From: a virus
Direction: 5' to 3' (one strand)
IMG/VR virus record: IMGVR_UViG_3300022699_000302
Coordinates: 62,001 to 126,000 of that record
Length of the DNA stretch: 64,000 nt
Shown: piece by piece, positions 26,751-54,490 of the stretch
Numbering within the stretch: position 1 is the first letter of the stretch
Layout of the letters: the number at the start of each line of letters is the position of its first letter
Position numbers and translations under genes: made by a program
The notes under the pieces: model-generated
The model's input: the letters and a program-made list of their open reading frames with translations, nothing else
Database searches by the model: none
What the model was told of the DNA's origin: nothing

Positions 26751-26782
26751 AGAAAGGGCTCCTTAGGAGGAGCCCTTCTTTT
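26751..26782 (-). terminator. Terminator of the GlnRS transcript
   Basis: Stem AAGGGCTCC...GGAGCCCTT containing the last codons and stop of the gene, followed by TCTTTTTGG on the minus strand. Confidence 0.75.
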
Positions 26783-28364
26783 GTTTCTTCTTCCACGGAT
26801 CTTTCAGTGGCACAACTTCGACTAAGTCGATACGGGTACCTACGATACAGACTTTGTAGTATCCTTTTCGCATGAGCTGCACGATCTGCCCGTGTTGGAG
26901 GTCAAGAGGCTCCATAAAGGCTATTGGGAGCTCTTTCATGCTGTCCTCATTGAACTCTCCGTTTTCGTCGAACAGGGGACCCAACTGGTAGATGTTGACC
27001 GGTCGAGCTCCTACGGAGACCCAATGGATCGTGCCTTTGACTTTTTCTTCCGGAAGGAGCTCACACTCGATACCGGTTAGATCCTCGTCCACCTGGAACG
27101 GTCCTACGTGCTTCAGGATACCGGCACCCTTGATCCGGACCTTACCTCCAGGCTTCAACCGTTTGAACTTCGGTGGCGGGTCCCCGGAGAAGTCATCCTT
27201 CTCGATCATGATGAAGTTGTCAACGAGAACCTTCCGAGTCCCGGCTTCGGGATCTTCGGGGTTGTTCTCGATCTCGACATACTCGCCGGCGGGCGATGAC
27301 AGATTGGAGATCCGAACCGATAACGGGTCGAAGACGCACATCACTCGCTGGGATGTCTTGTTGTAGCGGTCCCGGGCGATGTTCTCGAGCTTGTTCGGTG
27401 CGATCACCGAGTGGGTCTTGGACACCCCGATCTCTTCACAGAAGTCCTGGAGCATCTCGGGGGTATACCCCCGATTGCGGAGACCACGGAGAGTAGGCAT
27501 GCGGGGATCGTCCCATCCGTCGACCCTCTTGTCGTAGACCAGTTTACGGAGCTTGCGCTTTGAAAGCACCACTCCATCGACTTCGCATCTTGCGAATTCA
27601 CGCTGTTTTGGGAGGTAGTGGGTGTCGTAAACGGCATCATCGAATTCGGCGTGTTTGAGGAACCAGTTGTAGAGTTGGCGGTGCTCTTCGAATTCGAGAG
27701 TGCAGAGTGAGTGGGTGATCCTCTCGAGATAATCGACCAGAGGATGGCTGAAGTCGTAGCTGGGGTAGATGCAGTACTCAGCGCCGGTGCGGTGGTGAGG
27801 AGTGTAGATGATGCGGTACATCACAGGATCCCGCATCAGAGCACTGGGGTGCTTCCAGTCGATCTTGGCCCTGAGGGTGCACTCACCACCCTTGTAGATC
27901 CCCTTGAACATGTTGTCCCAACGGGCCAGGTTCTCAGAGATCGTGCGGTCGCGATAAGGGCTGGGCTTGAGCTCCTTGTTCGAGTCGCGGTAGTCGGCAG
28001 CATCTCGCGGCGAGAGATCACAGACATAAGCATCACCGCACTCCACCATCTTTCGAGCAACAGTTAGGAGATCCGGAAAGTAGTCCGAGGTGTAGGTGAC
28101 CTCGGGTTTGAATCGTAGTAGCCACGACAGATCTTCAATGATGGCCTTCTCATAGATCGGGGATTCGGTCAAAGGGTTGGTATCATCGAATCTGAGGTGG
28201 CATTTGCCCATGTACTGGGCGGCGATGCCGAAGTTGAGACACGCTGCTTTAGCATGCCCTAGATGCAGGTATCCGTTGGGTTCTGGCGGGAACCGAGTTC
28301 GCACCTCGGAGTACCGCCTTTCTTCGAGGTCCTTATCGATCTCGAGGGTGATGAAGTTCTTCAT
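26763..28364 (-). CDS. glnS: Glutaminyl-tRNA synthetase (533 aa)
   Basis: Class I aminoacyl-tRNA synthetase. It opens with FPPEPNGYLHLGHAKAACLN (HLGH at residues 34-37), has LRFDDTNP, SPYRDR, RAKIDW, RDPVMYRI, CIYPSYDFSHP, ITHSLCTLEF, and the second signature VVLSKRKL (about 267-272), then GWDDPRMPTLRGLRRG-like text and the two C-terminal barrels (KVKGTIHWVS). Close in length to the E. coli enzyme (554 aa). It should charge tRNA-Gln in the infected cell. No tRNA-Gln gene is in this window. AAAAGGAGAAAA precedes the ATG. Confidence 0.95.
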   Translation of the reverse strand: MKNFITLEIDKDLEERRYSEVRTRFPPEPNGYLHLGHAKAACLNFGIAAQYMGKCHLRFDDTNPLTESPIYEKAIIEDLSWLLRFKPEVTYTSDYFPDLLTVARKMVECGDAYVCDLSPRDAADYRDSNKELKPSPYRDRTISENLARWDNMFKGIYKGGECTLRAKIDWKHPSALMRDPVMYRIIYTPHHRTGAEYCIYPSYDFSHPLVDYLERITHSLCTLEFEEHRQLYNWFLKHAEFDDAVYDTHYLPKQREFARCEVDGVVLSKRKLRKLVYDKRVDGWDDPRMPTLRGLRNRGYTPEMLQDFCEEIGVSKTHSVIAPNKLENIARDRYNKTSQRVMCVFDPLSVRISNLSSPAGEYVEIENNPEDPEAGTRKVLVDNFIMIEKDDFSGDPPPKFKRLKPGGKVRIKGAGILKHVGPFQVDEDLTGIECELLPEEKVKGTIHWVSVGARPVNIYQLGPLFDENGEFNEDSMKELPIAFMEPLDLQHGQIVQLMRKGYYKVCIVGTRIDLVEVVPLKDPWKKKQKKGSS

Positions 28365-42673: not shown

Positions 42674-42986
42674 CTACAAATATGCCTCGATCGCCAGATG
42701 GCGAACGAAGTCCTCCAGGGCCCGTACTTCCTCTTCGAGCTCCTTTTGGCTCGAAGCGTGATGAAGGATCCTGACAGCCTCTGCCCGGACCGCAGGATCA
42801 GTCTCAATCCTCGGCAGCAAGTCAGGACATCCCAACGCCCTCACAAGAGGCGGTACGATATCTCCGTACAATGCATTGAAGCTTTTCTCAGGAGCATTGG
42901 GTGGGAGTTTCTTCAGCTTTTCCAATGCTCCGTCGATCAGGACTTCGTTCTTGAACAACTGATTGAGTGGGACTGCTTCTGACATA
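42674..42986 (-). CDS. Unknown helical protein (103 aa)
   Basis: The start MSEAVPLNQLFKNEVLIDGA follows GGGGGAAGAAGT; the longer frame would include the promoter leader. Helical (VRALEDFVRHLAIEAYL). Unknown. Confidence 0.6.
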
Positions 42987-43020
42987 CTTCTTCCCCCTAT
43001 GATGGAACCAAAAATCACTG

Positions 43021-43037
43021 CTCATTTTCTTAGGCCA
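43021..43037 (-). promoter_or_regulatory. GGCCTAAGA promoter box at the divergent junction with the virion operon
   Basis: Core at 43028-43036 followed by AAAATGAGC; serves the minus gene at 42986. The plus-strand virion operon starts 60 bases away. Confidence 0.6.
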
Positions 43038-43051
43038 CGAAGTCGGGGGAA

Positions 43052-43076
43052 CTTGGCTGCGTTGGATGCGACCAAG
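43052..43076. repeat. Dispersed palindromic element, copy 6, before the ligase-like gene
   Basis: CTTGGCTGCGT, TGG, ATGCGACCAAG, just upstream of the plus-strand ATG at 43093. The paired changes C/G and G/C in both arms keep the palindrome, which suggests selection on pairing. Confidence 0.65.
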
Positions 43077-43092
43077 AGGGTATACTGGGACT

Positions 43093-45456
43093 ATGAGCTT
43101 GTTCGACCGGATCAAGCATGCCGCTCAATTTGCCCCCGGACTGCCGGAGAAGGGCAAGTACCGTCAATTTCCCGAGATCAAGAAACCGACAGAGACGCAG
43201 TATGTAGCACAGCTCCATAAAGCAGAGAAAGCTGGTCCTCACTTCGATCTTCGCATTCAGATCCCCGGGACTGACGTCGGTTCGTCCTGGGCTGTACCTA
43301 AGGCGAAACTCCCGAAACCAGGACAGAAGGTCTTAGCAGTTCGACAGGGTGACCACACGGTCGACTACTTTAAATTCAAAGGGAAGATCCGATCGGGCTA
43401 CGGGAAAGGTTCGGTATCGCCGGCTCACCAAGGAAAGACTGAGATCATCGAGTCACGGCCAGATATGGTGCGTTTCGGTGTTTACGACAAGAAGTATCCT
43501 CAAGAGTTCTTGCTTCGCCAAACCAAGGGCAATCAATGGCTTTTGATGAATACGACACCGACTTCTAAAAAGGAGAAGCTGCCCCACTCCAAGCCAAAGT
43601 ATCGAGAGAAGAAGATTGATCAGCTCAACCCTGAATCATCGGACATCTGGCAGGCCAAGATCGACGGGGCCCATGCCTATATGGTTCTGGATAAAGGGAA
43701 ACGTCCCCGTATCTTTTCATATCGACGAGGGAAGAAAGCTCCTGGCGGGTTGATCGAGCATTCTCAAAAGCTCGTTGATTTGTGGAAAAACGTGCCTGGA
43801 GTGGATAAGCACACAGTTCTTCGAGGAGAGATCTGGGGACGTGCTCGAGGTCAGAGAAACAAGCCGTTATCCGTATCTCAGATCGGCGGGATCTTGAACT
43901 CGTCGACCTGGAAAGCCAGAGATAAGCAGAGAGAGATTGGAAAGCTTCAGTTCAGCCCCTTTGATATCGTAAAACATGAAGGCAGGAGCGTTGAGCGTAA
44001 GCCCTACCGAGAGAAGTATCCGTTGATTCGTCAAATCTCGGAACGCATGAAGCTGCCTCTTCCCGATACCGCTGAAACAGTTAGGGAGAAGAAGCGTCTG
44101 CTCCAGAAGATCGAGAAAGGCCGGCATCCCCAGACCAGAGAAGGAGTAGTGACCTGGGGAGATCGGGCCAGCAAGTACAAGCTCCGTCCCGACTTCGACG
44201 CTAAGATCACCGGTTTCTTCAAAGCGGAACCCGGGAGCAAATACGAAGACAGGGCGGTCGGTGGTTTCTATGTTGAACATAACGGCGCACGCAGTCGTGT
44301 AGGTACAGGTATTAGCGATAAGCTTCGTCGCGAGATGCACAAGGATCCGAATCGATTCAAAGGCATGGTGGCGACAGTGGCGGCGCAGGAGAAACTGCCC
44401 AGTGGAAAATTGAGGGCCCCCAGCTTCGTGAGATTTCATCTCGACAAAAACGATCCCGAGCGTCTGTCCCAAGTAAAGACAGCTCTCCATCCAGCGGCTG
44501 CCGGAGCCCTGGGAGGTGCCGGTCTTGGTGGCGCCATTGGATCGATTTCCGGCCTACTGAGTTCCGACAAGGACGAACCAAAATGGCGTAAAGCCCTTCG
44601 TCATGGAGCTATCGGAGCAGGAGTCGGAGGCGCTGGAGGCGCTCTCGCAGGATCAATGGTTCCGACCTACAAACCGAGATCAGAGATGGAATCGTTGCGG
44701 CACCTCGCCCAAAAAGGCTCTCCGGAGAAAATGTATACTCCGGAAGAGATCGAGGCGGTAAAGGGCCAGTTCGAAAAACTCAAAAAGATGATGCATCAGG
44801 AAGGCGTGGAAGCCGGTACTTTCCACAAGCGTCTTCCCATCCCGAAGAGTAAGTTGACCGAAAGGGATCTGACTGAAATTCTGGGATTCGAGCCGGTTCG
44901 GGTTGCTATTCCTGAATCTGGTCAGGACGTATTTACCTCGTATCGCCATCCCGAGCATACCTATCATGTCCACTCGCATCCGGGGCGGTGGTTGATGCAC
45001 ATGGATGAACACCCTGCCGCTACCATGATCGCTAAGGGGCGAAAAACTACAGCAGGCAAGGGTAAGGCGTATGCTGAGGGGATGCCTCATGTGTTAGGCG
45101 AAGGTGTTCCTGGAGCCCTTGCGTATATTCGAGGTAAACTCTTGCGAGGAAAAGGATTAGGTCGTCGGGTACTCAAAGAAATAAATCCCAAGGCTCGACG
45201 CACGCTTCGTAATCTGCCTGATTCTCCCTCTTATGTTATGCCTTCAGGACCTGAGCCGTCCGGCGGTTCTGTGATGCCGAAACTCAGTGCTCAACGGTTT
45301 AGCGATCGAAATGTGGTTCGTAAGATCTTATCGAATAAGTATCAAGACGATCCGTGGCGAGCGCAGCGGCCTGCTCGCATTCGTGCACCTAAGAAGAAAC
45401 TCGACAGTGGCCGAGAGAACATGACCAATAAACTCAAGAAACGTCTACTCCAGTAA
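43093..45456 (+). CDS. LigD-type phosphoesterase + ATP-dependent DNA ligase fusion, Gly-zipper tail (787 aa)
   Basis: Residues 35-155 match the LigD 3'-phosphoesterase domain: HKAEKAGPHFDLRIQI, SSWAVPK and DHTVDYFKFKGKI (H42, H50, D52, H88). Residues 180-460 hold an adenylating ligase core: KIDGAH (Lys189 nucleophile), LRGEIWG and EGVVTWGD, then FDAKITGF. Residues about 475-540 are a Gly/Ala-rich hydrophobic stretch (GALGGAGLGGAIGSISGLLS, GAGVGGAGGALAGSM) like a membrane-inserting glycine zipper. The last 250 residues are unrecognised. It is the first gene of the virion operon, so it may be packaged. The fusion is unusual. Confidence 0.75.
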   Translation: MSLFDRIKHAAQFAPGLPEKGKYRQFPEIKKPTETQYVAQLHKAEKAGPHFDLRIQIPGTDVGSSWAVPKAKLPKPGQKVLAVRQGDHTVDYFKFKGKIRSGYGKGSVSPAHQGKTEIIESRPDMVRFGVYDKKYPQEFLLRQTKGNQWLLMNTTPTSKKEKLPHSKPKYREKKIDQLNPESSDIWQAKIDGAHAYMVLDKGKRPRIFSYRRGKKAPGGLIEHSQKLVDLWKNVPGVDKHTVLRGEIWGRARGQRNKPLSVSQIGGILNSSTWKARDKQREIGKLQFSPFDIVKHEGRSVERKPYREKYPLIRQISERMKLPLPDTAETVREKKRLLQKIEKGRHPQTREGVVTWGDRASKYKLRPDFDAKITGFFKAEPGSKYEDRAVGGFYVEHNGARSRVGTGISDKLRREMHKDPNRFKGMVATVAAQEKLPSGKLRAPSFVRFHLDKNDPERLSQVKTALHPAAAGALGGAGLGGAIGSISGLLSSDKDEPKWRKALRHGAIGAGVGGAGGALAGSMVPTYKPRSEMESLRHLAQKGSPEKMYTPEEIEAVKGQFEKLKKMMHQEGVEAGTFHKRLPIPKSKLTERDLTEILGFEPVRVAIPESGQDVFTSYRHPEHTYHVHSHPGRWLMHMDEHPAATMIAKGRKTTAGKGKAYAEGMPHVLGEGVPGALAYIRGKLLRGKGLGRRVLKEINPKARRTLRNLPDSPSYVMPSGPEPSGGSVMPKLSAQRFSDRNVVRKILSNKYQDDPWRAQRPARIRAPKKKLDSGRENMTNKLKKRLLQ

Positions 45457-45494: not shown

Positions 45495-46331
45495 ATGGAA
45501 TACCCAGACCTGGAAATGACCAAGGTCGCCGCCGCTTACGCGGTTGAGTCACCGGATAACGTGGGCGATGCTATCGCTCACAGCTCGCTGGTAGCGGGCA
45601 TGCTGATGGGCCTGGCGAACGGCAAGAAAGAGGCGGGACAGCTCTCGCCGGAAGATCAGCGGATCATTGGCCTTGTTGCTTCGGTATGCCAAAAGACAGC
45701 CGAGATGGCTGATCAGCTGAACACAAAGACAGCTTCGATCGATATTGCTGATGCGGTGTCTCTCCTCGAGAACGACTTCTTTATCAGCATGATGTCGGAC
45801 AAAGTCGCCTACGCAAAAGAGGGCAATCTTCGTCTGCTCGATAAGCACTTCGACGCTACTGATCTTGAGTTCTGCGAGAAGGTCGCCGAGAAGTATGCCG
45901 GCCTGTTTGAGAAGCAAGCAAACGACGAAATGGAAGAGATCCAGTACGGCGAAGAGGCTAATGATGACGCAGATGTCGAGAACGGCATGGCGGAATCGTT
46001 AGAAGAAAAGAAGAAAAAGAAGCAACGCCAAGCCCTCGAGAACAACGAGGGTGAGCTCGAAGAGGGTGGAGACATGGATGAGTCCAACGGCGGTGTAGTA
46101 GGCGAAGACGCACTCGCTGAAGCTCTCCGTAGGGTTAATTCAACCACCTATAGTCCTATGGAAGAAGGCATGGACGCCATGGACGGTGAAGAGAACGAGA
46201 TGGCCGAGGTTGCCCGACTTCTCGAAGCTCTCAATTCAGGACAGCTTGGTGGAGCCGACGGGATGTCCAGCTCGGAAGGTATTGGCCCGATGCTGGCGTC
46301 GATGGGACATGCTGGCCGCATGATGCAATAG
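45495..46331 (+). CDS. Virion-operon acidic protein (278 aa)
   Basis: AAGGAGCTCCTG precedes the ATG. Helical N-terminal half (EDQRIIGLVASVCQKTAEMA, AVSLLENDFFISMMS), then an acidic, Met/Gly-rich C-terminal half (EEIQYGEEANDDADVENG, EEGMDAMDGEENEMAEV). Likely a structural or scaffolding-type protein by context only. Confidence 0.6.
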   Translation: MEYPDLEMTKVAAAYAVESPDNVGDAIAHSSLVAGMLMGLANGKKEAGQLSPEDQRIIGLVASVCQKTAEMADQLNTKTASIDIADAVSLLENDFFISMMSDKVAYAKEGNLRLLDKHFDATDLEFCEKVAEKYAGLFEKQANDEMEEIQYGEEANDDADVENGMAESLEEKKKKKQRQALENNEGELEEGGDMDESNGGVVGEDALAEALRRVNSTTYSPMEEGMDAMDGEENEMAEVARLLEALNSGQLGGADGMSSSEGIGPMLASMGHAGRMMQ

Positions 46332-46616
46332 ATGAGAAAACTTGGTGGATCAGACGATATTCTTACGTATCTCCGCAAGGAGGCCCTTATCGGAAGAGGG
46401 GGACCTGGCGGACTAGGCGGAGTTCTTCCGCTGTTCGGCAAGGGTAAGGCCCCGAATCCTCTGAGTAAATCCCCTATGTCCCTGGGAGCTACGGGGACGA
46501 TGTCTTCGGCTCGAGGCGGACTGAAGATGCCTAATATTCCTAAGGCCAAGTCAAAGATGCAGGCCCCGACATCCGCAACGCCGACTGCACCCCAACCTCA
46601 GAACACAGGGGCATAA
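46332..46616 (+). CDS. Small Gly/Pro-rich protein (94 aa)
   Basis: Starts right after the preceding TAG. Low-complexity: GRGGPGGLGGVLPLFGKGKA, SKSPMSLGATGTMSS, ending with Pro/Ala/Thr (TSATPTAPQPQ). Probably disordered; a linker or structural peptide. Confidence 0.55.
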   Translation: MRKLGGSDDILTYLRKEALIGRGGPGGLGGVLPLFGKGKAPNPLSKSPMSLGATGTMSSARGGLKMPNIPKAKSKMQAPTSATPTAPQPQNTGA

Positions 46617-47317
46617 TGAATTTTTCAAAGAGTGAGGAGCTCGACCTTTGGAAGAAGTCGAGGGCTGGGGACGCGAAGGCTACCCAAGCCCTTCTTCGCT
46701 CTGTGATGCCTCATGTCCATAAAAGAGTCAGCCGATATCGGGATGTTCCGATCCCCCAGCCTGCGCTTTATGGTGAGGCCACAAAGATGGCATTGTCCAG
46801 CCTGCAGAATTGGGACCCGGCTCGAGGAGCCCGTCTCGGTACTCATGTGGTCACTTCCCTTCAGCGAATGAATAGATTTGTCACACAAAACAAAAACGTA
46901 GCCCGCATCCCCGAGCATCGAGCAGTTAAGATTGGTGGTTTCCTCAACGTACGGAATGCGCTGGAAGCAGAGCTCGGTCGCCCGCCTTCTCCTGAAGAAC
47001 TTGCAGACGAACTGGCATGGCCAGTAAAAGAAGTACGGCATATCGCAGCTTCGATGAGGAAAGACCTGTCGGAGTCGGGTATGCCCGAGGCTGCGCTGCA
47101 GCACCATCGGGACCGTCAGAAAGAGACTTCTCAGTTTATCCGCTACAGTCTTACGCCGCCGGAGCGAAAGGTCTTCGACTCCTACTTCGGAAAAATCGGG
47201 AAGAAGACCGGGAAACCGCCCCCGGTTTCGTCTGTGGCGAAAAAAGTCGGCAAGAGCGAAGACTGGGTATATCGGGTCCGCCGGCGGTTAATCTCTGATA
47301 TCAAGAGGTATACCTAA
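46616..47317 (+). CDS. Sigma-70-like factor (233 aa)
   Basis: Region 2-like: ALYGEATKMALSSLQNWDPA, RLGTHVVTSLQRMNRFVTQN; region 3-like: LEAELGRPPSPEELADELAW; region 4-like HTH at the end: LTPPERKVFDSYFGK, VSSVAKKVGKSEDWVYRVRR. The -10-recognising and HTH segments make a phage-coded sigma plausible. It sits in the virion operon, so it may be packaged for early transcription. It could direct the GGCCTAAGA boxes; that link is inference. Confidence 0.75.
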   Translation: MNFSKSEELDLWKKSRAGDAKATQALLRSVMPHVHKRVSRYRDVPIPQPALYGEATKMALSSLQNWDPARGARLGTHVVTSLQRMNRFVTQNKNVARIPEHRAVKIGGFLNVRNALEAELGRPPSPEELADELAWPVKEVRHIAASMRKDLSESGMPEAALQHHRDRQKETSQFIRYSLTPPERKVFDSYFGKIGKKTGKPPPVSSVAKKVGKSEDWVYRVRRRLISDIKRYT

Positions 47318-47529
47318 TGAGGCCAGAAACAGTTTTCCAACTAGTCAAGCACGGCCTTACCGCATTGAAGGTGCCGAAACCGGTAAGCCCTAAGCGCGTA
47401 TCGTCTGCTGTCCAGGATGTCCCATCGGTAACCGGCAATAAGACTACGGCGACCACTACTAAGTTGCAGACCACCAAGGGCTCACCGAAAAACCCCGGGA
47501 AGATGATCCTTCCTAAGGCGAACAAATAA
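47317..47529 (+). CDS. Small basic low-complexity protein (70 aa)
   Basis: ATG overlaps the previous stop (TAATGAGG). Reads MRPETVFQLVKHGLTALKVP, then Lys/Thr/Ser/Pro repeats (SVTGNKTTATTTKLQTTKG). Disordered. Possibly DNA-packaging related; no evidence beyond charge. Confidence 0.5.
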   Translation: MRPETVFQLVKHGLTALKVPKPVSPKRVSSAVQDVPSVTGNKTTATTTKLQTTKGSPKNPGKMILPKANK

Positions 47530-47542
47530 CCAGGAGAACAAG

Positions 47543-47854
47543 ATGAAAAAGTTGATGATTTTGACGATTGTGATGATTGCAGGCGTTAGCTTCACCGGTT
47601 GTAGCATGTGTCAAATCAACGAGGATTTGGCACAAGATGCTGTGGACACCTCGAAGCAGTCTCAAGCAGATATTGAGCTCGTAACTGGATGGTTAGACCA
47701 GACTCTGGAGGGGGACACCAGCTGGAATGAAGACGAGGACGGCCAGCCGATTTGGGAAGCTGAGCGCGACTCGATAAAGCTTAACTCGAAAGCCAATGTT
47801 GCGGCCTGCGAAGAGCTCCTGGCTAACGCTAAAGCTGCCAACAAAGACGACTAA
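47543..47854 (+). CDS. Predicted lipoprotein (103 aa)
   Basis: Signal peptide KKLMILTIVMIAGVSFTG followed by Cys20 (lipobox FTGC), then a polar acidic body (DEDGQPIWEAERDSIKLN). It should be lipidated and attached to the outer or inner membrane. Phage lipoproteins can serve in lysis or superinfection exclusion. CAGGAGAACAAG precedes the ATG. Confidence 0.75.
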   Translation: MKKLMILTIVMIAGVSFTGCSMCQINEDLAQDAVDTSKQSQADIELVTGWLDQTLEGDTSWNEDEDGQPIWEAERDSIKLNSKANVAACEELLANAKAANKDD

Positions 47855-47877
47855 TTGGTTGCATCGGATGCAGCCAA
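47855..47877. repeat. Dispersed palindromic element, copy 7
   Basis: TTGGTTGCAT, CGG, ATGCAGCCAA, a near-perfect copy between the lipoprotein stop and the next RBS. It has no U-tract. Confidence 0.75.
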
Positions 47878-47889
47878 CAAGGAGAAGTA

Positions 47890-48528
47890 ATGAGTGATCT
47901 CAAACCATTTGAAGACATCCTTGATAAGATTATCTCGGATGGTGAGGATGAGTTGAAGGACGCGGCCAAGGAAGTTCTTAAAATCGGTCGTGGTGCTTTC
48001 CAGGACTTCCTGAACGACATCAAGGATGACCTGACATCTGAGGATGCTAAGCGGTTGGCCGAACTCTATGCCGAGGCAGAGGCTAAGATTCTTGCCTACA
48101 ACTCGACCTCGGCTCGTCGTGTGATGAAGCGCCTCAATCTGATCTCGCGGACCTTTTACAACATCAATCGTAGTCAGAACGCAAAACGTGCCATCATCTC
48201 ATGGCGCCAAGCTCTCCGCATCCTGACCTCGCTGGTATCACGTCTTGGGTCTATCGGGGCGGAGGCGCTTAGCGGCCTTGCTGGTGAAGCCGTTAAGGCC
48301 GGATCTGATCTTGTCGACGAGGTCGCCGGCGAAGCCGAGAAAGCATTGTCTTCAAAGAAGACAAAAAAGGTCAAAAAGAAAAAGTCCCAGAAGAAAAAGA
48401 AGAAAAAGAAGAAGACCACTAGCACCACTACGAAGAAAATCGTCGAGGACGATGACGGAAAAGACGGTCCTATCACTGATGATCTGGTTATCGAGGACGA
48501 CGAGAGCGGTGACAAGGAGAGTAGCTAA
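47890..48528 (+). CDS. Virion-operon helical protein with Lys-rich segment (212 aa)
   Basis: AAGGAGAAGTA precedes the ATG. Helical body (DKIISDGEDELKDAAKEVLK, LAELYAEAEAKILAYNSTSA), then a long Lys/Thr stretch (KKVKKKKSQKKKKKKKKT) and an acidic end. The charged, opposed tails look like a protein that contacts DNA or a capsid surface. Unknown. Confidence 0.6.
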   Translation: MSDLKPFEDILDKIISDGEDELKDAAKEVLKIGRGAFQDFLNDIKDDLTSEDAKRLAELYAEAEAKILAYNSTSARRVMKRLNLISRTFYNINRSQNAKRAIISWRQALRILTSLVSRLGSIGAEALSGLAGEAVKAGSDLVDEVAGEAEKALSSKKTKKVKKKKSQKKKKKKKKTTSTTTKKIVEDDDGKDGPITDDLVIEDDESGDKESS

Positions 48529-48878
48529 TGAGTTCTGAAAAACCATTCTACAAGTCGCTGAAGTTTTGGTACTCAGTTGGTGGTGTGTGCGCTGTTGTGG
48601 TCGGTCACTTCCTTGGACTATCGGTCTATGAATTGATGCTGATCGCCGGTATTGCTGTGTCTTTGGTTGGCGGCCAGGCTTCGTCGGACTTTAAGAAGCA
48701 CGCTACAGCCATCGAGAAAGAGGCTCGTGAGCGTGAGATGGTAATGTCTCTAATCACGAGTCAGACGGGAGATCCTGTTACCATGCAGGACCTGAGTCCT
48801 GAAACTGCGAAGAAGATTCGCGAGTTCGTCGATGAGCTCAAGGGGTTGAATACCGTAATTTCCGATGAGGAGGACTAG
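48528..48878 (+). CDS. Membrane protein, two TM helices, holin-like topology (116 aa)
   Basis: Hydrophobic segments YSVGGVCAVVVGHFLGLSVY and LMLIAGIAVSLVGG are separated by few residues, followed by a charged coiled-coil-like tail (HATAIEKEAREREMVMSLI). Two short TMs and a charged end fit small holins, but nearby lysis enzymes are not seen. Confidence 0.6.
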   Translation: MSSEKPFYKSLKFWYSVGGVCAVVVGHFLGLSVYELMLIAGIAVSLVGGQASSDFKKHATAIEKEAREREMVMSLITSQTGDPVTMQDLSPETAKKIREFVDELKGLNTVISDEED

Positions 48879-48880
48879 AC

Positions 48881-49084
48881 ATGGCGTCCGGACGCTTCAG
48901 GCAAAAGAACTTGGCCGAGGTATACGGCTTACCTCCGATGACTCCCATTCCGAAGTGGTTACAGAAAGAGGAGATCGAGAAAGCCGCTGCTCTGATCCGT
49001 GATAATCCTGACATGTCCTTCGACGATGCAATTTGTTATGTTCTGAAGGAACAAGTCGGGAAGGCTAAACGTGTCTCTGCCTAG
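48881..49084 (+). CDS. Unknown small protein (67 aa)
   Basis: Reads MASGRFRQKNLAEVYGLPPM, PKWLQKEEIEKAAALIRDNP, DAICYVLKEQVGKAKRVSA. It overlaps the next gene by 14 bases. Unknown; small virion-operon protein. Confidence 0.6.
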   Translation: MASGRFRQKNLAEVYGLPPMTPIPKWLQKEEIEKAAALIRDNPDMSFDDAICYVLKEQVGKAKRVSA

Positions 49085-51017
49085 CACAACAGCCCTACGA
49101 GAAGCACTCAATGCCGTTGTAGACCCCAGTACGGACTGCGACGGCATTGTTGGTCCCGCTTTGCGCGTGGTAGGTATTCTGTTTTCGATGGAAGCGTCAT
49201 CGTCTCGATCACAGAACGAGTTGGCCGAGTTCATTGACGACACTAAATCCTCGATTGAGAATCTTAGTGAGAATCAGGACCTGAGAGAGCAGCTGTTCGG
49301 AGAGTTTGAGAAGCTTAATGCTCTGGACGAGGCGTATTCGAACCAGTCGATCCAATCAATTTTAGGGAGTAGCGACCCGTACTCACAGGCCGGTGTCTCG
49401 CCAGACTCGCTTTTGGTGAATCAGCAGACCGGTGGATTCGGGCTATTCGATCAGTCCTCGCTAATCAACAACCAGTTTTCTGACTTTACGTTGACCGGGT
49501 CACAGATTGATGCCCCCTCTGGGGGTACCGACTGTTCTGATCTCCTGGCCGGATCGTTTGGTAGTCCGACAGCGGCGGAGCTACCTACGACTACACGATC
49601 GTTTCGACGGGCTGCTTCCAGTTTGGCCGGGATCGGCATGTCGATAACCCAGAATCCGGGTCGGTTGCTTAGTTCTTCCATTACCGCAATGTCGACTTTG
49701 TTGACTACGCTGGGGCAGCGAAGAGCGACACTCGAGAACTGCAAAACACAGATATCCAATATTCGTGACCTGCTCGAACAACTCGACAGCAACGACTATG
49801 TAGTTCGAGTGAACCAGGTCATAACAGGAGCCAAGGTATACGTCACACAAGCAATTGAAGCTATTGAGCAGATTGTAGATGAGCTCACAGCGTCTGGAGA
49901 TGTCAATGAAGACCGGAAAGACGAACTGAAAGAGTTTCTTCTCGAGGCTCGCCGAGAACTGGATACTCCGCCTGTCCCCGCTGCAAACAACTTCTTTGTC
50001 TATCAAGCAGTATCTGCTCTTTTGGTGGTCCTGAACCAACTTGTCGAGTACCTGAAAAACCAGAACAATGCTGCAGTGCCGGTTATAACGAATCTAACGG
50101 AATTCCGTGCGTCCCTTGAGTCAAACATTACTGTCTCAAATCATTTCGGGTCGATGTTCTCGATTCTTCGGTGCCGGCTGCAAAAGCTTTCTGCTCAGAT
50201 GACGAGAGTTATTCAGAAGAGCAACCCCGTCATTGCGCATCTCAAGATGCAGGAGTGGAGGATTCTTCTGGAAGTTTATCGCAAGATGGTTGATCTAGCT
50301 GCGAAAGATCCGGCACCCCAGCTGGTTGGAGAATTTACTTCTTCATTCGGGGAGTCCCTTGGCGAATTCGAGGACAGTCTCTCCAGCCTAGCACCTGATT
50401 TTTCAGAAGAAGAGATTGACCAATCTCCCAGCAAGATCCGGGCTTTTATGGACGCGGCTCAGACAAAGCTAAAGACGGATCTGGATCAGTCAGTCATTGA
50501 CGCTTTAGCTGGAGATGCGATCGAGCAGATCGATAAGGACTTGGAAAATAGCACGATTATCGAGAACTTGATGGACGAGTTTATCGACAGTAATCCATCC
50601 CAACAGAAGGCTGCTGAAGCACTTAGTGTCGTTCTCGCATCTTCTGTTGAGCTCTTCCCTCTGTCTGACGCGTTGAGCCAGGGAGACTGGAAACAGTTTT
50701 TCACAGCAGATCCCCAAGACTTGGCGATTGAAGCTGTGACTGCTCGTCTGCTCGAGGCAGCGGCGAATTGTCGATGTGGTAGCCAGACGGATGCTGCAGC
50801 ACAGTCTGTGGCTCGCCGGCTTCGTCGAGAGGCCGATCGCCGCATCCAACAGGACCGGCTGAATCAACTTGATGAGCGGTATGTCTCCTCAACGAGCTCG
50901 GAAGTCACGAGGAGCGCTATACTGGAAATACGGGTGTTGAAGCAGAGATTGAGGTCTTTGCGAGCCCTGTTCCAGTCACCATGTTTTGGTGTGACGGAAC
51001 AAGTAACGCTTTTCTAG
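49071..51017 (+). CDS. Large helical virion protein (648 aa), GTG start
   Basis: GTG with AAGGCTAAAC. Long helical and coiled-coil stretches (LENCKTQISNIRDLLEQLDS, QAIEAIEQIVDELTASGDVN, VIQKSNPVIAHLKMQEWRIL) with a Ser/Gly/Gln-rich part near residues 105-165. Ends with an Arg-rich helix. Position between the holin-like gene and the baseplate genes suggests a tail or baseplate hub component; not recognised. Confidence 0.6.
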   Translation: MSLPSTTALREALNAVVDPSTDCDGIVGPALRVVGILFSMEASSSRSQNELAEFIDDTKSSIENLSENQDLREQLFGEFEKLNALDEAYSNQSIQSILGSSDPYSQAGVSPDSLLVNQQTGGFGLFDQSSLINNQFSDFTLTGSQIDAPSGGTDCSDLLAGSFGSPTAAELPTTTRSFRRAASSLAGIGMSITQNPGRLLSSSITAMSTLLTTLGQRRATLENCKTQISNIRDLLEQLDSNDYVVRVNQVITGAKVYVTQAIEAIEQIVDELTASGDVNEDRKDELKEFLLEARRELDTPPVPAANNFFVYQAVSALLVVLNQLVEYLKNQNNAAVPVITNLTEFRASLESNITVSNHFGSMFSILRCRLQKLSAQMTRVIQKSNPVIAHLKMQEWRILLEVYRKMVDLAAKDPAPQLVGEFTSSFGESLGEFEDSLSSLAPDFSEEEIDQSPSKIRAFMDAAQTKLKTDLDQSVIDALAGDAIEQIDKDLENSTIIENLMDEFIDSNPSQQKAAEALSVVLASSVELFPLSDALSQGDWKQFFTADPQDLAIEAVTARLLEAAANCRCGSQTDAAAQSVARRLRREADRRIQQDRLNQLDERYVSSTSSEVTRSAILEIRVLKQRLRSLRALFQSPCFGVTEQVTLF

Positions 51018-51024
51018 GTGCGTC

Positions 51025-51471
51025 ATGGCGTTTGACCTGCGCATTGTTAATCCCGCTAAAAGCGGGGACCCGCTGGAAGTTGGTCCCCGGGACGGGATTC
51101 TTTTGCCTCAGTTGATTGCTGATTGTGCGGCGCGTTTGGTAGAGGGAACCGAGAAGCTAGTCCAGCAGATAACACTAGAGATTCTCAATGATCCCCTTCC
51201 CGACGGAACAGGGTCTGGCCTCGCATCCGCCCTAAAAGCCGCACCTCCGGATGAAAGTGAGGCACGTCGTATCGCATCTGCAGGTGTTCGCCGGGTCAAG
51301 TCGAATATCTTAGCTCAGCAGCAAAACCTGCAGAATGGGGTCGATGAATCTGAGTTGTTACTAGATCTGCGTCTTCTCAGCTTTTCTATTAGCAGTAACT
51401 CGTTTGATCTCCGATTGGAGGTGGTGACGGTAGATGGGCGTGTGACGACTGAGATCGTCGAGGTAACGTAA
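51025..51471 (+). CDS. Baseplate component, gp25-like candidate (148 aa)
   Basis: Reads MAFDLRIVNPAKSGDPLEVG, then DLRLLSFSISSNSFDLRLEV and TVDGRVTTEIVEVT. Small alpha/beta layout and position two to five genes before a baseplate J-like gene fit the gp25/W family, but the match is loose. Confidence 0.5.
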   Translation: MAFDLRIVNPAKSGDPLEVGPRDGILLPQLIADCAARLVEGTEKLVQQITLEILNDPLPDGTGSGLASALKAAPPDESEARRIASAGVRRVKSNILAQQQNLQNGVDESELLLDLRLLSFSISSNSFDLRLEVVTVDGRVTTEIVEVT

Positions 51472-51719
51472 TGAGCTTCATCGATCAAGCAGTTGAGAAG
51501 CTTAGCGAGATACTCGGCGATCGAATCTCAGATCGTGACAACTTTGGTACTGGTGATTTATCTGCGTATGAATCAAAGAGTTATATCGGTATGCTCACTC
51601 CGTCGAGTGGTCCCCGGGAAAAGCTAGAAGAGATGTTGGCTCGTCACAAACGAATGAAGCCTTCAGGTGAGCGTGATCCCGCGACCACTTATGAGAACTT
51701 GAAGGATGAGGAAGAGTAA
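51471..51719 (+). CDS. Unknown small protein (82 aa)
   Basis: ATG overlaps the preceding stop (TAATGAGC) with GAGGTAACG. Reads FIDQAVEKLSEILGDRISDR, ending with acidic residues. Baseplate-region small protein; role unknown. Confidence 0.55.
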   Translation: MSFIDQAVEKLSEILGDRISDRDNFGTGDLSAYESKSYIGMLTPSSGPREKLEEMLARHKRMKPSGERDPATTYENLKDEEE

Positions 51720-51891
51720 GAGATGGCTGTCACGGGTTCTATGTTTTTTAGGATTCCATGTCTGGCTATACCAGCAATTCAATACGATGAGCTGTGTAGA
51801 ATGCGGAGCTATAGCTAGATTGAACTACTTCGGTGAAATAGTATCTGTCAGGCCGAAGAGAAGAGGTCAGGATGAGCGAGAAGACATCTAG
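51706..51891 (+). CDS. Unknown Cys-containing small protein (61 aa)
   Basis: Basic start (MRKSKRWLSRVLCFLGFHVW), then SCVECGAIARL: a short hydrophobic FLGFHVW and CxxC like DUF1660-type prophage zinc peptides. It overlaps both neighbours. Confidence 0.5.
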   Translation: MRKSKRWLSRVLCFLGFHVWLYQQFNTMSCVECGAIARLNYFGEIVSVRPKRRGQDEREDI

Positions 51892-52444
51892 GAGTATCCC
51901 TCCTCACGTCGAAAAGATGATCGAGGAGCTTCAGGGAGGCCCGCAGGTTCAGCAGCACAAAGGGCTTCCGATGGGGGCACTGCGTCAGCTCCTGCGTATT
52001 CTCGGAATTCCTCTTGATCAGTTCCTGGACGATAACGGCAAGTCTCCGCATGACGAAGGTGATGAGACCACAATGAGCGATACAGCCCCAGAAGACCCTT
52101 ATTACCCCGTGTCCAGCGGGAATGACGAACAGTATTCAGCCACAGGTATTGATCCTCTTGCCAAGGGAGCGTCTGAGTACAAGCTCGAGCCTAAGAAGCC
52201 GAAAGGTAAGAAAGCGGAACCGGTGGCTCCCAGCAGCCTGTTGAAGAACGCAGACCAAATTCTTTTATCCCATTTCTTCGGCGGCGTTCTCGATGGCTTT
52301 TCGAAACACGGCTGGTACCCTGAAGTGGATCCGAACTTCCTTTTTGACTCTCTGGTCAATCACGCCGATGATGCAGTGGGATGCACGGAGAAAGAGATAC
52401 AGGAAGTCAAAATCGCCTTTGTGAAGAGTTGGAATCAGGAGTAA
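51872..52444 (+). CDS. Virion-operon protein (190 aa)
   Basis: AGGTCAGG precedes the ATG. Helical start (IPPHVEKMIEELQGGP, LRQLLRILGIPLDQFLDDNG), an acidic middle, a Lys/Pro-rich linker and a C-terminal helical domain (LSHFFGGVLDGFSKHGWYPE). Probably baseplate-associated by position. Confidence 0.55.
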   Translation: MSEKTSRSIPPHVEKMIEELQGGPQVQQHKGLPMGALRQLLRILGIPLDQFLDDNGKSPHDEGDETTMSDTAPEDPYYPVSSGNDEQYSATGIDPLAKGASEYKLEPKKPKGKKAEPVAPSSLLKNADQILLSHFFGGVLDGFSKHGWYPEVDPNFLFDSLVNHADDAVGCTEKEIQEVKIAFVKSWNQE

Positions 52445-52447
52445 TGA

Positions 52448-54490
52448 ATGGCTGAGCTTCAAGTCTTTGAAGATCGGTTCAACCTCCCGATTGCGCCGTT
52501 CATTACGCAGATCCTGCGTGAGCGATTTCCTGATCTAGACTTCAGGAAAGGATCTGCTCTGTACCGTGCTGTGGTTGTTCCGGTTTCGGTGATCTTTCAG
52601 CCGTTCCGGGATCGGCTCTCGATTCTGCGGCGTAACCAGTCTCTTCGCTTCTATCAGTACATGCGACCGAGTGAGCTCGACAAGCTCGTCGCCAACTTCT
52701 TTATTTCTCGCCAACCGGCTTCCACAGCAGGAGGTACGGCGAGGGTTTATTTCGCTCAGCCCGACAATCGTACGGTTCCTGGTAATGCGGTATTTTCAAC
52801 AGCAGACGGACTGCAGTTCCGTCCGGTTACTGCGATCGCAGTGACCTCGGCAGAGATGAGCCTGAACCAGGAAGATGGGCTGTTCTTCGTAGATATCCCG
52901 GTCGTCGCTTTGGCTCCCGGCGAAGACTACGAGATTGAGGCGGAGTCTTTATCGACGGTCTCTAATGTTCCCAACGCGATTCGAGTAACAAATCGAGCAG
53001 CTTTTACCGGCGGTAGGGATGAAGAGAGTAATGTTGCTCTGGTCAATCGTACTAAAGACAGCCTGGCTACTCGTACGATCACCAGCCGCAATGCTATTAT
53101 CGCCACGCTGAATGAGAATTTCCCTGGTGTGATCATCTCTCAGGAGGTCATTGGCTACGGCGATTCCGAGATGACCCGAGACACCATCAAAGCTTTTGCC
53201 AGTTATGACGAGCTCTTTGGCACCTCGTATTGCCGGAAATTCAATGTCGCCTATGATCCCGAGACTCGTCAGATCTATACCGGGTCAGGCGCCCCTCCCT
53301 CTGGATATGTTCAGCGAGGGGCCGTTGTCGATGTGTCGAACTCATACGGAGAGCCCACTCCGAGCGGAGGAGAGCCTTATTTCTGGTACGAATTAGAAGT
53401 AGAGAGGGACGGCGAGATTGTCGTGCTGACAATTCAGCGCGGGGACACGATCAAACTTGTAACCGGCGATGCTGACGAAGGTCAGTACATCATTGATGAC
53501 ATCATCTACTCCGAGCCGTTCTCTACGGTGACCCCTCCGCCGGCCCCCGACCGTAATGAGGCAACTCACATCTTGATCCTCGGTGAATCTCTGACCGCAC
53601 CGCAAGGTCCTGGTGCCTTTGATCCCAGCCCCGGTAATGACGATCTAACCGAGTATTCCTATACGATTCAGACCGGCGTTCGGACTAGTGAGTTCCACAT
53701 CGGAGGTAAAGCTGATGTGTACATCCATACCACAGGAGTACTAGAAGACGAGATTTTGATCAGCGAGCTCTATGTCGATCCTAATGCGTTGGCGCCTAAT
53801 TTTTTCGACATTCCGGTGAGCTCGACACCGATCGATGTTCCGGTCGGGCCTCCTGGTGTGGCCCTCTACGAGAATGGTAAAGCGTTTTTGCTGCCGGTGA
53901 TCAATATCGTCAGGATCGAGCAGGTCGACCCATCTAATTCGGATCTGATCGTCAAGACGCTGGAACCCGAGACCGAGTACAAGTTGATCTACAACGATGT
54001 CGACTCGAGGTTTACTCCTAACGAGGACGCATTCATCCGCTTCATCGACAGCGACCCCGCAGGAGCTAATTTCGCTAATGCTCGTATGCGGGTGGTCTAT
54101 CAAACCAACACAGACATCGAGACTCTACAAGAATTCGTGAATCAGTCAGTGATCAAGGACACAACCAAAGACGTCCTGATTAGAGCGGCTCAGCAGGTTC
54201 AGCTCGACATTGAGTTGGCCTTTAGAGGGGACGCTACTCAGACAGCTGCTACTCGAGTCCTTGAGAATTACATCGAAGGGATCCCGCAAGGCGGTGAGGC
54301 CAACGTTAACGATATCGTTGCCGTCATGAATCTTTTCGGCGTAAATGATATTGAAATGCCCGTTACTTTGCGTAAGACTGTGTTCAATGCCGATGGTTCA
54401 ATCTCTACCGAGGAATCGACTGATCGACTCGAGGTCAATGAACTTCAGCGATTCATCCCGGTAGATGAGTTGTCGGTTACCAAACTCTAA
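52448..54490 (+). CDS. Baseplate J-like protein (680 aa)
   Basis: CAGGAGTAATGA precedes the ATG. N-terminal helical part (FITQILRERFPDLDFRKGSA), then NFFISRQPASTAGGTARVYF, GNAVFSTADGLQFRPVTAI, LSLNQEDGLFFVDIPVVALAP and EDYEIEAESLSTV, the signature layout of phage baseplate J/gpJ proteins of contractile tails. The C-terminal half is beta-rich. It implies a myovirus-type tail. Confidence 0.8.
   Translation: MAELQVFEDRFNLPIAPFITQILRERFPDLDFRKGSALYRAVVVPVSVIFQPFRDRLSILRRNQSLRFYQYMRPSELDKLVANFFISRQPASTAGGTARVYFAQPDNRTVPGNAVFSTADGLQFRPVTAIAVTSAEMSLNQEDGLFFVDIPVVALAPGEDYEIEAESLSTVSNVPNAIRVTNRAAFTGGRDEESNVALVNRTKDSLATRTITSRNAIIATLNENFPGVIISQEVIGYGDSEMTRDTIKAFASYDELFGTSYCRKFNVAYDPETRQIYTGSGAPPSGYVQRGAVVDVSNSYGEPTPSGGEPYFWYELEVERDGEIVVLTIQRGDTIKLVTGDADEGQYIIDDIIYSEPFSTVTPPPAPDRNEATHILILGESLTAPQGPGAFDPSPGNDDLTEYSYTIQTGVRTSEFHIGGKADVYIHTTGVLEDEILISELYVDPNALAPNFFDIPVSSTPIDVPVGPPGVALYENGKAFLLPVINIVRIEQVDPSNSDLIVKTLEPETEYKLIYNDVDSRFTPNEDAFIRFIDSDPAGANFANARMRVVYQTNTDIETLQEFVNQSVIKDTTKDVLIRAAQQVQLDIELAFRGDATQTAATRVLENYIEGIPQGGEANVNDIVAVMNLFGVNDIEMPVTLRKTVFNADGSISTEESTDRLEVNELQRFIPVDELSVTKL

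Follow-up and report, generated by a model that had tools for sequence, protein, structure and literature searches.

Among the proteins that phages are known to deliver into the cell are RNA polymerases, enzymes of modification and anti-restriction proteins. Bacterial NHEJ requires Ku, and the Pseudomonas LigD protein (PaLigD) has the domain order PE-LIG-POL, with a 3'-phosphoesterase (PE) first, the ligase second and a polymerase domain of the archaeo-eukaryotic primase type last. Archaea have stand-alone PE proteins (3p43, 3p4h and 5dmp), which are small and separate. The ATP-dependent ligases of phages (phrog_114, the T4 enzyme and the Rhizobium phage ligase 9fzx) have a nucleotidyltransferase and OB core with the ligase motifs and no PE, and in the examples from D69 and Arash they are encoded with replication genes. 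Polyvalent proteins of phages and conjugative elements (Iyer et al. 2017, PMC5512222) are multidomain, are found in portal and terminase neighbourhoods, and have among their domains an SNF2 ATPase and an inorganic pyrophosphatase (InPase); these proteins are believed to travel in the particle and to be injected. In the passages of that paper that were searched, ligases are mentioned solely as RNA ligases and LigD never; likewise, the passages found by searching in it and in the 2021 jumbo phage survey make no mention of a LigD-type PE.

The DNA analysed here (the window) is a stretch of 64,000 nucleotides, G000:C1:62001-126000, from a 194,114-base IMG/VR virus record. The RNA polymerase (RNAP) of the phage is a beta-beta' fusion, and Vibrio phage D69 and Salmonella phage Arash are its distant kin. 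In one ORF of the window, a LigD-type PE is followed by a complete ATP-dependent DNA ligase, then by a hinge rich in Gly and Ala, and finally by a C-terminal domain (Table 1). Two ATG starts are plausible for this ORF, the first at 43066 (796 aa) and the other at 43093 (787 aa), which was the choice of an earlier, sequence-only reading of the window. The product, referred to below as the PE-ligase, is best read as a virion-associated, probably co-injected polyvalent protein that heals and seals DNA ends, and a probability of about 0.6 is assigned to this reading.

Table 1. Features of the PE-ligase gene and its surroundings (window coordinates)
Feature	Position	Strand	Basis or remark
Divergent upstream ORF	42674..43018	-	
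Intergenic space, start point of the + strand cluster	43019-43092		
PE-ligase ORF	43093..45456	+	787 aa; numbering used throughout
N-terminal segment, family motif FAxG[LI]P directly ahead of PE	43093..43173	+	alignment
LigD-type 3'-phosphoesterase, residues about 28-155 (H42, H50, D52, R54, H88, Y92)	43174..43557	+	Pfam, alignment, structure match
ATP-dependent ligase nucleotidyltransferase domain (K189-x-D-G, E246, E350-G, K361-x-K363)	43585..44187	+	Pfam, alignment, structure match
Ligase OB domain	44188..44472	+	Pfam DNA_ligase_OB_2 1.1e-6, above cut-off; AF2 model
Two-part Gly/Ala-rich segment (glycine zipper below threshold), a disordered hinge in the model	44473..44697	+	Pfam, AF2 model, hydropathy
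Conserved His-rich C-terminal domain (IPExGQDxF.. HSHPxxWxMHxDxH), residues 545-735	44725..45297	+	homologs in L164, L171, L173; divergent copy L136
Basic C-terminus, predicted disordered	45298..45453	+	model and sequence properties
Next gene, 278-aa protein	45495..46331	+	
RNA polymerase sigma factor	46616..47317	+	Sigma70_r3 6e-10, phrog_351 2.5e-13
Baseplate J / wedge protein, same + strand cluster	52448..54490	+	Baseplate_J 1.7e-12, phrog_6 3.7e-24

By sequence and by predicted structure, the PE domain is clearly a member of the LigD superfamily. A scan of the ORF matches Pfam LigD_N PE at 2.9e-14 and NCBIfam LigD_PE_dom at 2.7e-14 (under that model's whole-protein cut-off), and the solved relatives of the ORF at the sequence level are LigD-type PE domains and the phage DNA ligase 9fzx. 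The Mn ligands of LigD are His42, His48 and Asp50, and its phosphate site consists of Arg52, His84 and Tyr88 (PMC8656161); the equivalents of these PaLigD residues are H42, H50, D52, R54, H88 and Y92, the first five present in 31/31 aligned PE-ligase rows and Y92 in 29/31. An AF2 model made from the single sequence was discarded (pLDDT 38.6) and replaced by a model from an alignment of 33 window and IMG/VR sequences, with a mean pLDDT of 78.5, values of about 90-97 for the PE and ligase core, and mixed values in the tail. In this model the PE beta-barrel fold finds its nearest structural matches in the archaeal proteins 3p4h (VIA-align Z 17.0, rmsd 1.5 A, 113 residues) and 3p43 (Z 17.0; rmsd 1.5-1.6 across the two), although the phage PE is fused to a ligase. 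Among isolate phages the PE domain has no match, even at E 10, and the isolate phage matches to the ORF cover the ligase part alone.

For the ligase, the ORF matches Pfam DNA_ligase_A_M at 2.1e-4, slightly under the curated cut-off, and the ATP-dependent ligases of phrog_114 at 1.2e-25. The motifs that would be expected of such an enzyme (KxDG, E, EG and KxK) are all found on alignment, together with the OB domain: K189, D191, G192, E350, K361 and K363 are present in 31/31 aligned rows, and E246 in 30/31. The Arg that ends motif I (KxDGxR) is common in ligases, but not universal, and is also missing in some annotated phage ligases, for instance that of BUCT696 (KYDGWY). Here it is absent family-wide, with H in 17, A in 9 and S in 5 of the 31 rows, and on this alignment a residue other than Arg at the end of motif I is a hallmark of the PE-ligase family. 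When compared by VIA-align, the model matches T4 ligase 6dt1_A with a Z of 17.2 and an rmsd of 3.5 A over 266 residues of the nucleotidyltransferase and OB domains, and the mycobacterial LigD ligase 6nhx with a Z of 16.5; structurally, the ligase core is as close to T4 and archaeal ligases as it is to LigD, or closer. Domain search and structure prediction, both named as checks by the sequence-only reading, have thus recovered PE and ligase with all catalytic residues, and homology at the level of sequence and model makes the enzyme assignment firm.

The region that follows the ligase had been described in the sequence-only reading as a glycine-zipper segment of membrane-like character. The Gly/Ala stretch is real, and comprises two GxxxG-rich segments (window about 44494-44656), but a strict glycine zipper is not borne out, as the match to PF13441 scores 22.8 bits against a curated cut-off of 28.9. 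Because of this score, a peak Kyte-Doolittle hydropathy of 1.3 and modelled disorder (pLDDT < 50), little speaks for a membrane-like stretch, and with such a peak a membrane helix is unconvincing. Comparable Gly-rich segments are present in further genes of the same phage (G000 55-59 kb).

The 250-residue tail that had been listed as unknown is indeed an addition to the enzyme core, but it is not wholly unfamiliar, since it contains a conserved domain that occurs in other phages. This domain is 54% identical in L171 and 46% identical in G012, where it lies within a 546-aa ligase-free ORF directly before the portal gene (locus L173). In L164 it is fused to a PE-ligase with the domain order unchanged and no Gly/Ala hinge in between, and a divergent copy is found in a 1618-aa PE-ligase ORF (L136, 8.8e-15). 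No Pfam family matches the domain, no homolog was found among the isolate phages searched, and the PDB structures among the matches listed do not reach it. Its sequence suggests metal binding, because the pattern HxH..W..H.D.H is invariant. The HSHP motif was also considered as a sign of a JAMM-type protease, an idea that was dropped because the S/D residues are not spaced as in the known motif.

The full-length protein gave no confirmed relative when used as an IMG/VR query, and the family was reached instead via IMG/VR relatives of the RNAP, several of whose records encode PE-ligase homologs. An alignment of these homologs led to 41 PE-ligase loci in IMG/VR, for which one motif-I pattern was required and a few of which are near-duplicates of one another. 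The sequence-only reading had called the protein unusual, and its combination of a LigD-type PE and a ligase without a polymerase domain stands; with 41 loci, however, it is not a one-off, and judged by sequence comparison it belongs to a recurrent phage family, not described so far, whose members are fused to varying partners. Homology searches with Pfam identify PE-ligase-InPase-SNF2 helicase (G017, 1329 aa), PE-ligase-SNF2 (G005), PE-SNF2 (G036) and HAD/PNKP-PE-ligase (G037, the HAD match being under its cut-off), while in G043 PE and a ligase-like ORF are neighbours. HMMER searches of all loci add InPase fusions in L131, L151 and L160, helicase fusions in L156, L161/L162 and L170, a HAD fusion in L152, and in L150 a fusion to RNAP beta' (query residues 1470-1943). 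A LigD-anchored PE alignment run against IMG/VR picked up loci of the bacterial LigD type and, on two other viral contigs, one stand-alone PE gene each (L025:6327-6710 and L026:7953-8435), with no ligase in the ORF. Cellular genome contigs yielded no confirmed relative with two short patterns of limited sensitivity.

Two minor observations concern the relatives. The motif FxxELxKIA recurs in L130-L170 and L124-L126, either close to the N-terminus of a small protein or at a junction that follows PE-ligase (for instance, L148:5777-5986, L144:10049-10852 and L133:5935-7929), with 22 occurrences versus 1.5 expected from shuffles (maximum 5), and is possibly an encapsidation or processing signal; none occurs in the record of the phage under study or in the Arash parts. 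In record G022, a protein that looks PAS-GGDEF-like by eye is encoded directly upstream of the PE-ligase gene (L127:10902-11819, - strand).

The genes around PE-ligase are, by homology, largely those of the virion. In 27 of the 41 loci, there are genes for RNAP, portal, terminase, sheath, baseplate, sigma factor or P672 within about 6 kb, always on the same strand; P672 is a conserved protein to which this phage's 617-aa ORF between the RNAP and terminase genes is related. PHROGs confirm such neighbours for the sheath (G022), for sigma factor and baseplate wedge (G025) and for the terminase (G005), and in several relatives, too, a sigma factor gene adjoins that of PE-ligase. The ORF studied here had been proposed as the first virion gene of a virion operon; it does head the + strand sigma/baseplate cluster, but it is not the first virion gene of the phage, which has its portal and terminase genes in the region around 147-161 kb of the record and its tail sheath gene at 177 kb. 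No sigma-70-type promoter match was found on the + strand before the ORF, and the counts were not above those of shuffles.

A position in a virion operon is by itself no proof of packaging, and the link to the particle is drawn through Arash. Mass spectrometry of purified Arash virions gave some of its highest counts for RNAP beta Gp206 (3516 spectra), RNAP beta' Gp216 (1210) and the helicase Gp217 (1148) (PMC10585845). The RNAP of the phage under study is homologous to Gp206/Gp216 and its portal to Gp204, and the helicases that are fused to PE-ligase in relatives are homologous to Gp217 (E 6e-92 for G017 and 4e-47 for G005). Some points count against a virion reading: Arash's own ligase is without PE and is represented in virions by only 2 unique peptides (PMC10585845), and no homolog of the Arash-type virion helicase was found in the gene set of the phage under study. 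The Arash authors also caution that highly expressed enzymes may persist in a virion preparation (PMC10585845). On balance, the analysis makes a virion role of PE-ligase probable, and the protein would plausibly be delivered into the cell alongside the DNA. The unrelated domains (PE, ligase, SNF2, InPase, HAD, RNAP beta' and the tail domain) vary among relatives and the genes have virion neighbourhoods, as in the polyvalent proteins covered by the passages searched, and PE-ligase appears best filed as a variant of this class for which DNA end healing and sealing is a new activity.

In the proposed mechanism, PE-ligase would most likely be produced late, together with the structural proteins, and would ride in the particle alongside the virion RNA polymerase. 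The C-terminal domain would probably dock the PE-ligase core in the particle, with the Gly/Ala hinge as a tether, a role that is proposed because a relative encodes the domain alone beside its portal gene. The target would be the incoming genome, ahead of phage gene expression. Here, the PE domain would convert a 3'-phosphate or 3'-ribonucleotide end to a clean 3'-OH (a Mn-dependent reaction in LigD), and the ligase, AMP-charged from ATP, would then close the nick. In this way nicks and blocked ends that arise from damage during storage or from nucleases of the host would be mended, and the genome might also be closed. Action on incoming DNA is an unproven mechanism, but the one with the best support. 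A wider and more tentative proposal, held at somewhat less than even odds, is that a large clade of phages, most of them uncultured, equips its virions with a multisubunit-type RNA polymerase, an SNF2 translocase, PE-ligase, a pyrophosphatase and a PNKP-type phosphatase for transcription and for particle-borne repair of single-strand breaks or ends before gene expression; phage particles may thus arrive in the cell with repair enzymes of their own. If true, an injected enzyme that heals and seals DNA ends would represent an entry factor of a new class. It could account for the survival of very large linear genomes that acquire nicks inside the particle or through nucleases of the host, and NHEJ-type PE domains would then have a function beyond cellular NHEJ.

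An unlikely alternative, though the strongest of those considered, is that PE-ligase is the replicative ligase, joining Okazaki fragments and sealing nicks while its PE strips 3' blocks, and merely sits in the late cluster. It is the sole match to PF01068 in the 194-kb record, where no NAD-dependent ligase was found either, and the ligases of Arash and D69 have no homolog in this gene set; since no second ligase was found, PE-ligase could serve replication too. The conventional ligases of Arash and D69, however, lie with replication genes (primase, RNase H and exonuclease), whereas the context of PE-ligase is morphogenetic in most relatives and its fusions are to virion-type modules. In addition, at least three PE-ligase phages (G017, G058 and G067) encode an extra PE-less ATP-dependent ligase-like protein, so that PE-ligase is not their sole ligase; a second ligase match in G022 is less like a DNA ligase. 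Judging from these gene contents, a specialised role is therefore likely for the family, but less certain for this phage. As a separate observation, the conventional ligases of D69, Arash and G017 (L024, L178 and L174) start with a domain that by eye looks WGR-type.

Somewhat less likely again is a function at the packaging stage, whereby nicks and 3' blocks in the concatemer would be repaired near the portal and terminase by an enzyme that is not itself injected. In eight loci the PE-ligase gene is flanked by those for P672 and the large terminase subunit, in three it is close to the portal gene, and in L173 an ORF with the C-terminal domain immediately precedes the portal gene, all of which would suit such a role. 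In the phage under study, however, the gene is grouped with those for sigma factor and baseplate, at a distance of about 54 kb from the terminase, and the fusion with RNAP beta' (L150) and the fused helicases homologous to the virion helicase suggest use on entry, which is the preferred reading.

It is highly improbable that PE-ligase is a true NHEJ LigD that joins double-strand ends with host Ku. The likeness is that a PE of the LigD superfamily, its catalytic residues all present, precedes an ATP-dependent ligase that has an OB domain, which is the order seen in Pseudomonas LigD. Unlike the bacterial protein, PE-ligase has the motif I Arg replaced by His, Ala or Ser, is encoded in a virion cluster, and bears the Gly/Ala hinge and an extra C-terminal domain; its ligase core, as noted, is structurally no closer to LigD. 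Pfam and NCBIfam scans of the ORF find no POL domain, and the search for a Ku gene that the sequence-only reading had suggested gave no match at E <= 1 in the 194-kb, possibly incomplete record. With neither POL nor Ku found there, PE-ligase is not a member of bacterial NHEJ LigD or of classical NHEJ, and works like the end-processing half of LigD. An artificial fusion of two genes through a frameshift or assembly error, to which only the odd-looking domain combination would point, is already refuted, as 43066-45456 (+) is a single continuous frame with zero internal stops, the independent phage L164 carries the same PE-ligase-tail-domain order in one ORF, and there are dozens more PE-ligase ORFs.

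Other genes of the phage merit a brief description. Before the window, at about 47528-54016 of G000:C1 (L008), about ten adjacent ORFs of 147-302 aa share a C-terminal WWxHxRFxEL-like motif, and by their sequences this run is a tandem paralog array. A 941-aa head-region protein (G000:C1 166230-169055; L012:1230-4055) has an apparent intein/Hint-type insertion (C-FIAGTLITMADGSRKPI ... VHN-C). Within the window, the - strand encodes a glutaminyl-tRNA synthetase-like protein (26763-28364), about 45% identical to the versions of other phages, and a Ro60/TROVE-like RNA-binding protein (20073-21749; phrog_850 2.9e-40).
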